Assembly: GCA_020631355.1 (NCBI GenBank) | Contig: JAHDHL010000001.1 | Location: 111,616-175,615, forward strand | Length of the DNA: 64,000 nucleotides | Reading direction: 5' to 3' | Source: Saprospiraceae bacterium | GTDB lineage: Bacteria; Bacteroidota; Bacteroidia; Chitinophagales; Saprospiraceae | Shown: one piece after another, positions 8,050 to 11,857 of the stretch | How positions within the stretch are numbered: the first letter of the stretch is position 1 | Layout of the letters: every line of letters starts with the position of its first letter | Position numbers and translations under genes: made by a program | The notes under the pieces: model-generated | What the model saw: the letters and a program-made list of their open reading frames with translations, nothing else | Databases searched by the model: none | What the model was told of the DNA's origin: nothing

Positions 8050-9507
8050 ATGAAAGCAATAGTAATCGGTGCCGGTATTGGTGGATTGGCCGTTTCGATA
8101 AGGCTCGCCCAAAAGGGATATGATGTCGAGGTTTATGAAGCGAATACATATCCGGGTGGAAAACTATCCGAAATCAGAAGTGAAAACGGATTTCGTTTTG
8201 ATGCGGGACCGTCCCTTTTCACCATGCCATTCTATGTGGATGAACTCTTTGAGCTTTGTGGCGAACAACCCGGAGACACTTTCCAACATGAAGAATTGGA
8301 TATTGTCTGTAATTATTTCTGGGAGGATGGTACAAGATTATCGGCTTATTCCGAAAAGGAAAAACTCTATCATGAAATCGAGGAACAGTTGGGTATCAAC
8401 CCGAATCGATTCAGGGCAGCGATGGATGATAGTAGGATAAAATATGAACTGACAGGGCGAATATTCTTGGAGCGACCATTACACTTGGTCAAGAGTTGGC
8501 TATCATGGGATGTATTAAAAGCCATTTTCCAAATTTATAAGTTGGATATTTTCAAGAGTATGCATGATGTCAACAAACAACTCTTACGACATCCCAAACT
8601 GGTACAATTCTTTGACCGATTTGCTACTTATAATGGGTCCAATCCCTATCAGGCCTCAGGAATATTGAATATCATTCCTCATTTTGAACATCATTTTGGT
8701 GCACATTTTCCTAAAGGGGGAATGATTTCCATTACAAAAGGGCTTCATCAACTAGCCATAAGGCAAGGCGTACAATTCCATTTCGGACAAAAGGTTGAGC
8801 GCATCATCATAGAAAACGAGGAAGCCGTAGGCATATCTGTTTCAGGAGCAATTAAATCTGCGGATATCGTAATCAGTAACATGGATATCTATCCTACCTA
8901 TAAAAAATTACTGCCGCAACAAAAGGCACCATCAGCTGTCTTCGAGAATGAGCGTTCATCATCCGCCTTGATTTTCTATTGGGGTATAGATAAGACATTT
9001 CCTGAACTGGATCTACACAACATATTCTTCAGCGACCATTACAAAGCTGAATTCGAATCCATTGCAGCGGGAGGAATCCACGAGGACCCAACAGTCTATA
9101 TCAATATTTCAAGTAAATATCATCCCAAGGATGCACCTGAGGGCTGTGAGAATTGGTTCACTATGATTAATGTTCCCTACAATGACGGACAGGATTGGGA
9201 CAATCTCATCCAATCCGCAAGGAAAAACATTATCCGTAAGGTAAGTCGCATATTAGGGGAAGATATTGAGAAACATATTATTTTCGAAGATATACTTGAC
9301 CCTAGAAAGATTGAACTAAGGACATCATCCCATGCAGGAGCCTTATATGGTACCGCCTCCAATGATCGTATGGCTGCATTCAAGAGGCATGCGAATTTCA
9401 GTTCCAGTGTCAAGAACCTATACTTCTGCGGAGGAAGTGTCCATCCGGGAGGCGGGATTCCGTTGTGCCTCCTATCCGCTAAAATGGTGGAACAAGTTGT
9501 GCGCTAA
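8050..9507 (+). CDS. crtD: CrtI/CrtD-family carotenoid desaturase, probably 1-hydroxycarotenoid 3,4-desaturase
   Basis: FAD-dependent carotenoid desaturase of 485 residues. The Rossmann dinucleotide motif GAGIGGLA is at residues 7-14, followed by VEVYEANTYPGGKLSE and the FDAGPSLFTMP segment. The C-terminal FAD/carotenoid motif GGSVHPGGGIPLC is near 460-472. CrtI (phytoene desaturase) and CrtD are close paralogues. The CrtD call rests on context: the next two genes are a CruF-type 1',2'-hydratase and a CrtZ hydroxylase, and no phytoene synthase (crtB) is adjacent, as would be usual for crtI. It would introduce the 3',4' double bond after CruF hydration on the acyclic end of gamma-carotene. It acts at the inner membrane. 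The desaturase call is firm; the CrtD subtype is less so. Confidence 0.72.
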   Translation: MKAIVIGAGIGGLAVSIRLAQKGYDVEVYEANTYPGGKLSEIRSENGFRFDAGPSLFTMPFYVDELFELCGEQPGDTFQHEELDIVCNYFWEDGTRLSAYSEKEKLYHEIEEQLGINPNRFRAAMDDSRIKYELTGRIFLERPLHLVKSWLSWDVLKAIFQIYKLDIFKSMHDVNKQLLRHPKLVQFFDRFATYNGSNPYQASGILNIIPHFEHHFGAHFPKGGMISITKGLHQLAIRQGVQFHFGQKVERIIIENEEAVGISVSGAIKSADIVISNMDIYPTYKKLLPQQKAPSAVFENERSSSALIFYWGIDKTFPELDLHNIFFSDHYKAEFESIAAGGIHEDPTVYINISSKYHPKDAPEGCENWFTMINVPYNDGQDWDNLIQSARKNIIRKVSRILGEDIEKHIIFEDILDPRKIELRTSSHAGALYGTASNDRMAAFKRHANFSSSVKNLYFCGGSVHPGGGIPLCLLSAKMVEQVVR

Positions 9508-9546
9508 TTCGTATTAATTATCTATTCAATTCATTAGCTTAGTCAA

Positions 9547-10269
9547 ATGGCTCGAGAGTATACACCACACCGATTCCTATATAAGGCTGCAAAGCAATCC
9601 AAGGAAGAACTGAGTAAAATCAGGAGAAATCACCTTTCTTCCTTCATTCTCATTGTCCTATATGCAGTGGGTATATTCAGTTTGATATTCGAGGTTCACC
9701 CTCAATTCATCTATCTGACACCGCTCAATCTAGTCATATCATTCATTATCGTCCTACTGTCCCATCCTAAATGGGATTTAAGGATAGCGAGTGTTCTACT
9801 CATTTGTTTCCTTACGGGAATGGGGGTTGAAATCTGGGGCGTGGCTACCGGGGATGTATTTGGCGAATATGCCTATGGTGAGGTATTGGGCCCCAAATTA
9901 ATGGGTACACCCTATACGATAGGTTGGAATTGGATGATGTTGGTTTATTGTGTGGGAACCACTGTCCAACAAATAACGGATTGGGAGCTTTCGCCCTTAT
10001 TGAATAGTTTTGTAAAGAGTATTTTGGGTGCATTATTACTAACCAGTCTGGATATCCTGATTGAACCTGTAGCCATCATTCAAGGGTTTTGGTCGTGGAG
10101 TGCTGATGGAAGTATACCGATACAAAATTACATTGCTTGGTTTTTGATTTCATTCTTGTTATTGATGGTATACAACCTAGTTCTGCCACAAATAAAAAAC
10201 AAACCGGCCAAAACCTTGTTGATACTCCAATTCATCTTCTTTTTCCTTTTGGGAATAGAATGGTCCTAA
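9547..10269 (+). CDS. cruF: CruF-type carotenoid 1',2'-hydratase (DUF422 family membrane protein)
   Basis: Integral membrane protein of 240 residues with about seven hydrophobic segments. The family signatures are visible: GVEIWGVATGDVFGEYAYG (about 93-111), IGWNWMM, LDILIEPVAI with GFWSW (about 165-183), and PIQNYIAWFLIS (about 190-201). This is the DUF422/carotenoid biosynthesis family that contains CruF, which hydrates the psi end of gamma-carotene-type molecules. It starts 39 bases after the desaturase and is followed by crtZ after 16 bases, so the three are probably one transcript. An alternative is the related carotenoid synthesis protein of halophilic archaea (CruF homologue), which has the same chemistry. 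Confidence 0.82.
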   Translation: MAREYTPHRFLYKAAKQSKEELSKIRRNHLSSFILIVLYAVGIFSLIFEVHPQFIYLTPLNLVISFIIVLLSHPKWDLRIASVLLICFLTGMGVEIWGVATGDVFGEYAYGEVLGPKLMGTPYTIGWNWMMLVYCVGTTVQQITDWELSPLLNSFVKSILGALLLTSLDILIEPVAIIQGFWSWSADGSIPIQNYIAWFLISFLLLMVYNLVLPQIKNKPAKTLLILQFIFFFLLGIEWS

Positions 10270-10285
10270 ACTTAAACCACTTATT

Positions 10286-10783
10286 ATGGAGATTCTAGGT
10301 TATGCCCTGATTACCTTAGGCACTTTCCTTGGAATGGAATTCGTTGCCTGGTTCGCCCACAAATTCATTATGCATGGTTTGCTATGGATATGGCATGAAG
10401 ACCATCACAAACCACATCTTAAGGATGGCTTTTTCGAAAAGAACGACCTATTCTTTTTAGTTTTTGCCATACCTAGTGCCACTTGTTATATCCTTGGCTC
10501 CGCCACTTCCCATTTCTGGCTGTTCTTCATCGGTGTGGGGATTTCCATTTACGGGTTGGCCTATTTCCTTATCCATGATGTGTATATCCATAGAAGATTC
10601 AAATGGTTCAAGAAACTGGACAACCGGTATTCCAAAGCTATACTTAGGGCACATGGTGCTCATCATGCCGAACAAGGAAAGGAAAATTGTGAATCATTCG
10701 GATTATTGATTGTCAATCCTAAGTTTTTCAAAAAGAGAAGTGAATGGAAAAAACAGGAAAAGAACAACGAAATCTACGCCTAG
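10286..10783 (+). CDS. crtZ: Beta-carotene hydroxylase CrtZ
   Basis: A 165-residue membrane di-iron hydroxylase of the fatty-acid hydroxylase/CrtZ family. All the histidine boxes are present: H25-K-F-I-M-H30, H37-E-D-H-H41, H97-D-V-Y-I-H-R-R and H123-G-A-H-H-A. Four hydrophobic helices surround them. CrtZ adds the 3-hydroxyl to beta rings; on the beta end of a CruF/CrtD-modified gamma-carotene this gives a saproxanthin-type xanthophyll. Size and motif spacing fit bacterial CrtZ. It is the last gene of the carotenoid operon and no terminator follows immediately. Confidence 0.9.
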   Translation: MEILGYALITLGTFLGMEFVAWFAHKFIMHGLLWIWHEDHHKPHLKDGFFEKNDLFFLVFAIPSATCYILGSATSHFWLFFIGVGISIYGLAYFLIHDVYIHRRFKWFKKLDNRYSKAILRAHGAHHAEQGKENCESFGLLIVNPKFFKKRSEWKKQEKNNEIYA

Positions 10784-10965
10784 ATGGCCCAGTCTCAGAA
10801 AGCCCACTAATCCCTAAGTAGGAAAGAAGAAATTTAACATAACAAATTTGGGCTACATACAACTGAATTCCAACAATTTAAAACCTTACAATTGCAATTA
10901 TTTGTGTCACAAATAAATTTTGCAATCCTGAATTGAAAAGAGAATTGAAATATATTTGGAGAGAC

Positions 10966-11090
10966 GATACCCAGTATTTCTCTTTAAATACCAAGTCGTA
11001 AGATAATCAATGGATTTTGTTAAGAACGAAAAGTCCTAGAAACAAAATCAAACGGCATTCTGATTCCCACCAGAATGCCGTTATCATTTC
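10966..11090 (+). ncRNA. Candidate small structured RNA with three hairpins
   Basis: Downstream of a -7-like TATATTTG (10951-10958) come three hairpins in a row. The first pairs ACGA/TCGT outside and GTATTT/AAATAC inside (10964-10999). The second is a 9-bp perfect stem GATTTTGTT/AACAAAATC (11013-11021 with 11041-11049). The third is a 12-bp perfect stem (11051-11082) followed by a T-rich tail. No coding frame covers them. The arrangement of promoter-like box, folded body and terminator hairpin suggests a transcript of about 120 nt. The -33 box is not clear (a TTG at 10933 is only 15 bases away), and I recognise no known RNA family. It could alternatively be the 3' end of a long crt transcript. 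Confidence 0.4.
11051..11082 (+). terminator. Strong hairpin, likely terminator
   Basis: Perfect 12-bp inverted repeat AACGGCATTCTG/CAGAATGCCGTT with an 8-base loop, followed by TATCATTTCTATATTT. It lies 268 bases after crtZ, too far to be an ordinary end for that operon unless the gap is transcribed. Confidence 0.65.
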
Positions 11091-11374
11091 TATATTTCCC
11101 ATATCCTTTCAGTTACAATGAGCCTATTATGTAGCAGCATATCATCTGGCCCAATACTATCCTTATTCCAAAGTAAATCCCTTTCAGATTAGCTTCAATA
11201 TCCTAGGCTCTCCTCCAATCTTCAAAAATTCATTGGATCGTATTTTAATTCCATTATAATGATGGGGAAGTGGGGCTGTATTCAGGTTTTTTGTAGAAAT
11301 TTGCAGTAAACATTCCTGGATAACAATTGCCTATTGTGCAATGTTATATTCCTTTCGGATATAAAATCGAACTC

Positions 11375-11857
11375 GTGAAGTATAGAAGACTCAGCATAGA
11401 TGAATTGAAAGAATTGGAATCAGAATTCGTGAGATTCCTGGCCTCTAATTCCGTGACAGCAGATGATTGGGTTGGTATAAAGGAAAAAACTCCCGAAAAA
11501 GCGGAGCAACTCATGGATATGTTCAGTGATATTGTCTTTGAGAAGATTCTGGAAAAGGTAGATTACCTCGAACACAAACGCAAAGGAGACCTTAGGGTCT
11601 ACAAGTTCCTTGATGACCACATCAAGATGGTGGGTATGTATGTAGAGGGAGAAACAACACTTGATTTTACCAAGAACGAATCTCCGGAAGTAATGATGCA
11701 ACAATTGCGTCAGTCAGGTGGTAATGTCAAGATGTTTACCGGAGAAAAGAAATACAAGAAGACCAAGGAAATGGAAATTTTCCTAATCATGGAGGAGGGT
11801 GCCCTTATCTCCAAGGACCCAACACTGTTTGATACCTTATCCGCTCTCAAGGGTTAG
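11375..11857 (+). CDS. Conserved Bacteroidota protein of unknown function (DUF6495-like)
   Basis: Soluble acidic protein of about 160 residues, read from a GTG start at 11375 (VKYRRLSIDELKELE). An ATG 48 bases upstream is in frame, but its 16 extra residues look like leader sequence, and homologues as I recall them begin with MKYRRL. The start LSIDELKELESEFVRFLASN is followed by VTADDWVGIKEKTPEKAEQLMD, and the end is rich in Lys and Met. I recall this pattern from Bacteroidota proteins filed as DUF6495; no function is established. No signal peptide, membrane segment or catalytic motif is seen. It converges on the DUF3467 gene across a hairpin. Confidence 0.7.
   Translation: MKYRRLSIDELKELESEFVRFLASNSVTADDWVGIKEKTPEKAEQLMDMFSDIVFEKILEKVDYLEHKRKGDLRVYKFLDDHIKMVGMYVEGETTLDFTKNESPEVMMQQLRQSGGNVKMFTGEKKYKKTKEMEIFLIMEEGALISKDPTLFDTLSALKG

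Follow-up and report, generated by a model that had tools for sequence, protein, structure and literature searches.

A predicted activator-controlled small RNA downstream of crtZ in one Saprospiraceae genus, and a family-wide RNA with a similar promoter

Does the long intergenic gap downstream of crtZ in this Saprospiraceae bacterium encode a free small RNA, or does it contain little more than the end of a carotenoid operon? The gap was analyzed within a window of 64,000 nucleotides (the whole stretch of DNA studied; all coordinates without a genome label refer to it). It begins at the crtZ stop (10783) and extends ~545-590 bases to the next plausible start at ~11327-11375, and it was initially annotated as holding no open frame, which was borne out on the plus strand, where no frame of at least 40 codons and no credible frame was found. 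A trio of plus-strand genes at 8050-10783, named by inspection only, precedes the gap and lies outside the RNA:

8050-9507, plus strand: phytoene desaturase-like gene (inspection only)
9547-10269, plus strand: carotenoid-cyclase-like membrane protein gene (inspection only)
10286-10783, plus strand: crtZ-like beta-carotene hydroxylase gene, an open frame with family-wide relatives and the upstream neighbor of the RNA

To our knowledge, few small RNAs (sRNAs) have been described in Bacteroidota outside Bacteroides and Flavobacterium, and an open-literature keyword search on Saprospiraceae small RNAs and Rfam together found no paper. The action of sRNAs in Bacteroidota, which have no obvious Hfq, is poorly understood (PMC7366714).

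The gap contained the -7-type box and the three consecutive hairpins named in the initial annotation (all three stems between 10964 and 11082), together with an upstream site that had gone unnoticed there:

10898-10916, plus strand: activator-like site TTATTTGTG-T-CACAAATAA with core TGTCACAA at 10905-10912, its TGTCAC beginning 46 bp before the -7 box
10951-10958, plus strand: -7 box TATATTTG (consensus TAnnTTTG), predicted transcription start at ~10963
10963-11092, plus strand: predicted small RNA of ~120-130 nt, from promoter to terminator
10964-10999, plus strand: outer stem P1 of hairpin 1, ACGAU (10964-10968) with GUCGU (10995-10999), of which ACGA occupies 10964-10967 and TCGT 10996-10999
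10970-11008, plus strand: conserved core CCCAGTATTTCTCTTTAAATACCAAGTCGTAAGATAATC, including 5' ACCCA and the CU-rich loop, from comparison with relatives
10974-10991, plus strand: inner stem P2 of hairpin 1, GUAUUU/AAAUAC (GTATTT at 10974-10979, AAATAC at 10986-10991), with loop CUCUUU at 10980-10985
11013-11049, plus strand: hairpin 2, 9 bp with a 19-base loop, arms at 11013-11021 and 11041-11049
11051-11092, plus strand: hairpin 3, intrinsic-terminator-like, 12 bp with an 8-base loop and a T-rich tail, arms at 11051-11062 and 11071-11082

The claim that such stems would rarely arise by chance was only partly sustained when the gap was shuffled 1000 times with dinucleotides preserved. Of the shuffled gaps, 0.2% held a perfect 12-bp stem (loop of at most 12 bases), 6% a perfect stem of at least 9 bp (loop of at most 20), and 74% a 6-bp stem (loop of at most 8); thus, the terminator far exceeds what chance would give, hairpin 2 is a borderline case, and a stem like the inner one of hairpin 1 is ordinary when taken alone. 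The predicted RNA (10962-11092) folded at -34 kcal/mol with z = -5.8, mostly owed to the terminator, and the fold without the terminator gave z of ~-2.2 (10963-11050), or -1.0 with slightly different ends. Conservation, not folding, is the decisive support for the RNA.

Genomes G000, G001, G002, G003, G004, G005, G006, G007, and G008, all from one Saprospiraceae genus, were compared. The core was found by BLASTN directly after crtZ in G007 and G001 and at another locus in G004. The CrtZ proteins of genomes with the RNA are only ~80% identical, and outside the promoter, core, and terminator the gap gave no convincing alignment among relatives; G001 and G007 were identical over all 39 core bases, and G000 fit the consensus (CCCAGTATTTCTCTnnnAATACCAAGTyGTAAGATrATC) with no mismatch. 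The G004 copy, which retains CCCAGTATTTCTCT...AATACCAA, lies away from crtZ between other genes, convergent with a response-regulator gene, and has the same promoter. After crtZ, G008 carries a variant (ACCCTGTATTTC-CTAGTACCAATACATG-AAATACCAA) in which the core is clearly recognizable, and G006 carries a strongly diverged counterpart. Of the six genomes that have the RNA, five therefore carry it immediately after crtZ (G006 diverged), and since one relative keeps it elsewhere, its nearness to crtZ is probably positional. It was not found in the incomplete assemblies of G002, G003, and G005, and in G002 a terminator immediately follows crtZ without the RNA.

Within the unit, the structural elements differed in how they were kept. 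In P2, all five counted pairs (GUAUU/AAUAC) were invariant in four sequences, so there is no covariation and the helix is consistent with the data rather than proven; the stem is lengthened to 7 bp in G008, and in G007 an alternative fold as good as P2 competes with it. The equivalent of P1 in G007 is a 6-bp stem in different letters (UGCAAC/GUUGUA), and P1 is weak or absent in G001, G004, and G008. Hairpin 2 is missing in the relatives, where its spacer (11013-11049) is replaced, and it lies outside the conserved RNA. Every copy has its own terminator, the sequence of which turns over while the stem is kept, with five pairs altered on both sides among relatives. Compensating changes, which had been proposed as a check on all three stems, were found only in the terminator; P2 was invariant and hairpin 2 was not conserved. 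The CU loop was conserved in four copies and altered in G008 (UUUCCUAG) and in G006; the 5' ACCCA and the loop UUUCUCU are likely unpaired conserved elements, and the P2 loop CUCUUU is proposed as a candidate seed loop.

Four copies were used to build a covariance model; in a search of 149 genomes it scored these four members at 112-135 bits and the next best match, which was terminator-like, at 37 bits. The exact core was recovered by a scan of genome contigs in three Saprospiraceae assemblies and in one Lachnospiraceae match, and the promoter-plus-core pattern, searched in 398 family genomes, was confined to the genus apart from two matches, compared with four in the control. On these three scans the RNA is genus-level as far as searchable. 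Weak model matches in other genera (≤37 bits) were terminators or coding ends, and none of those inspected had the promoter. A search elsewhere in the order for the CAGTATTTCTCT pattern gave nine non-genus matches compared with seven for the reversed control, and the five inspected lacked the context. At L172 and L173 (genus g206), the TGTCACAA promoter is followed at once by TCCTGTATTT and TTCTGTATTT, respectively, which are faintly core-like; no clear terminator was seen there.

The box TAnnTTTG has been described as the -7 box of the primary sigma factor of Bacteroidota (PMC7366714), and in Flavobacterium it sits at -12 to -5 (PMC9723704), the placement from which the start at ~10963 was derived. 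It reads GATGTTTG in G007 and TACCTTCG in G006. The initial annotation had found the -33 element unconvincing, and there is indeed no good -33 box, for which the GTCACA element at a fixed distance is the probable explanation. GTCACA was present upstream in all six copies, with TGTCAC everywhere except G008, which has CGTCAC at the same offset. From the start of this motif to the -7 box, the distances were 46, 47, 47, 46, 46, and 47 bp in G000, G001, G007, G004, G008, and G006, respectively; in G004 an extra 26-28 bases separate the box from the core, with the site-to-box distance unchanged. The site in G000 is a palindrome with 9-bp arms. A site at fixed distance without a -33 box is the pattern that would be expected of an activator-dependent promoter.

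This architecture was also enriched beyond the RNA. The pattern TGTCACAA-N36-41-DAnnTTTG occurred 25 times in nine genomes, compared with six times for the reversed pattern, and when the gap was left free from 25 to 55, total lengths of 54-56 were strongly over-represented, with about one third of 34 matches in one tenth of the range. The same spacing from TGTCACAA to the box was seen before genes for apparently exported proteins (L088, L097, L103, L106, L107, and others). Because GTCACA precedes some protein genes, the element is not an sRNA-only signal, and any activator that binds it may regulate protein genes in addition to RNAs.

A second unit, sRNA2 (AAAAGTAGTTTTTGTGTTTATTTGTTTGGGTTAGAGaCCCTTgc...gcAAGGGTTTTcTTTTT), emerged from the promoter search:

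G000:C58:32619-32762 (L091), minus strand: sRNA2 of G000, with the invariant block GTAGTTTTTGTGTTTATTTGTTTGGGTTAGAG and then a terminator
L090, L094, L156-L160, L165, L178, L181, L183, L186-L214, and L236: further sRNA2 loci

It was found in 69 of the 199 relatives searched, almost all of the same family and spanning 61 genera, a few of the weakest matches being partial. It is often single copy, with up to three copies in tandem (L165), and tandem copies also have the promoter architecture. Among 42 aligned copies, which were gathered by similarity, a 29-base block (T8 to G36 of the alignment) was invariant. No Rfam family matched sRNA2 at its gathering score; a match to RF02634 (E = 3.5e-6 in the short stretch) scored far below gathering and aligned mainly through two terminator hairpins, and this candidate was rejected. 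The comparisons suggest that sRNA2 is a previously undescribed family-wide RNA. Its block holds a tiny frame, GTG TTT ATT TGT TTG GGT TAG (M/V-F-I-C-L-G-stop; for example, on the minus strand of L091); as every base of the block is conserved, an RNA constraint is likelier than a peptide, although a leader-type peptide is possible.

Under a strict definition of the box, the site-to-box spacing was present at 22 of 43 listed sRNA2 places (one of which, L027, is a chance match), and at several further places the site is paired with a box that departs slightly from this definition; within the genus, all eight genomes whose upstream region was read had a spacing of 46-48 bp. Like the crtZ-side RNA, sRNA2 combines GTCACA, a 46-48 bp spacing, and TAnnTTTG with its own terminator and a similar size class, but the two are unrelated in sequence, and sRNA2 is family-wide with an invariant core. 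GTCACAT precedes both RNAs in G008 and G006, and GTCACAA precedes both in G000, G004, and G007; these paired variants might reflect one regulator with sites drifting together, which at such small numbers is suggestive only. Given nearly the same site-to-box spacing before both RNAs, it is probable that a single putative activator serves both and that the promoter depends on it.

The crtZ-side RNA could not be assigned to a named family, as had been noted initially. A search of the window against 4,227 Rfam 15 families gave no match at the gathering threshold, the best weak matches of a permissive search were chance hits to eukaryotic miRNA and snoRNA models, and the Rfam 6S models, including 6S-Flavo, gave no match at gathering or at E≤10. 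By manner of working it is likened to trans-acting intergenic sRNAs, with no claim of family membership; as judged by sequence only, it has its own promoter (six of six copies, fixed spacing) and its own intrinsic terminator (12-bp stem, compensatory changes), as trans-acting base-pairing sRNAs do. A cis-acting leader or riboswitch was considered and rejected: the RNA ends in a terminator ~240-290 bases before the next gene, and that gene is convergent in G001 and G007, so that the RNA is no 5' leader there. From this arrangement, leader function appears very unlikely.

Among described RNAs of the phylum, GibS of Bacteroides thetaiotaomicron (~145 nt) is similarly intergenic, promoter-driven, terminated, and conserved within one genus, and it pairs with mRNA start regions in a phylum without obvious Hfq (PMC7366714). 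GibS differs in having a -10/-30 PM2 promoter rather than a TAnnTTTG box with GTCACA at fixed distance, and a long unstructured 5' seed rather than the short stem with a CU-rich loop proposed here; it is set apart here by promoter and description, and the Rfam search returned no match to any family. Rfp18 comes from Flavobacterium psychrophilum, where the TAnnTTTG box is also in use; this Bacteroidota sRNA is conserved beyond the species, is predicted to fold strongly, and influences several mRNAs (PMC9723704), but it belongs to another order, has protease targets, and is compared here by description.

On the strength of the conserved core, the promoter architecture, the terminator position in relatives, and the one moved copy, 10963-11092 is best read as an independent, lineage-specific sRNA of ~120-130 nt, activator-controlled and probably base-pairing (probability about 0.72), much as the free RNA of about 120 nt initially suggested. 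The other origin suggested at the outset, release of a 3' piece from the carotenoid operon mRNA by processing (a 3'-UTR-derived sRNA without its own promoter), would suit the position after crtZ in five of six genomes (G006 diverged) and a terminator that may also end the operon. It is improbable given that the -7 box and GTCACA, set a fixed distance apart, are conserved immediately before the core and that the G004 copy kept the same promoter away from crtZ. Enterobacterial 3'-UTR-derived sRNAs lie downstream of an operon, as the crtZ-side RNA does, and it may share the terminator of its operon as they do, but here the RNA has an apparent conserved promoter of its own and is off-operon in one genome. 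Still less probable is a terminator accompanied by accidental stems and a promoter box of chance origin, with the likeness left over from common ancestry: single moderate stems do arise by chance in an AT-rich gap, but the 39-base core was kept while flanking bases turned over, one copy moved, and the promoter spacing held in all six.

A very short peptide gene is scarcely credible. Small frames are possible in any 120-nt transcript, but the gap has no plus-strand frame of at least 40 aa, and the G004 loop differs in length by one base from that of G000/G001/G007, with a larger difference in G008, so that any frame across the core would be broken. More serious, though unlikely, is a decoy or sponge that binds a protein or another RNA instead of mRNAs. 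The primary sequence is more conserved than the structure, the promoter class is common with sRNA2, and a 14-base complement search in the genus gave sites that were scattered and did not recur at the start regions of orthologs, and hence no credible conserved target; against this, pairing with sRNA2, which looked attractive (loop UCUCUA with UUAGAGA), gave duplex energies no better than shuffled RNA.

For the preferred base-pairing sRNA, an activator bound at GTCACA would replace the -33 contact and turn on transcription at ~10963, and the same activator would also drive sRNA2. The transcript of 120-130 nt would stop at the intrinsic terminator, the promoter and terminator both being backed by comparison. 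Less certainly, the RNA would act in trans, with ACCCA and the CU-rich loop UUUCUCU pairing with target mRNAs and altering their translation or stability, like base-pairing sRNAs of other Bacteroidota.

The locus offers an RNA gene that is well defined and open to testing, its promoter architecture being clear, and it leads to a family-wide RNA whose 29-base block is invariant; the promoter shared with sRNA2 is more novel than the crtZ-side RNA itself. Because both RNAs have this unusual promoter type, together they point to one regulator. The broader proposal, that a Saprospiraceae activator with a GTCACA(A) site centered ~50-55 bp upstream of the start controls sRNA2 and lineage-specific RNAs, an sRNA regulon new to Bacteroidota, is tentative, at slightly less than even odds. 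Two short TGTCACAA-driven units with a terminator-like hairpin and no frame (L170 in G618, minus strand, and L171 in G611) are unrelated in sequence to the other RNAs and may be further sRNAs with this class of promoter.
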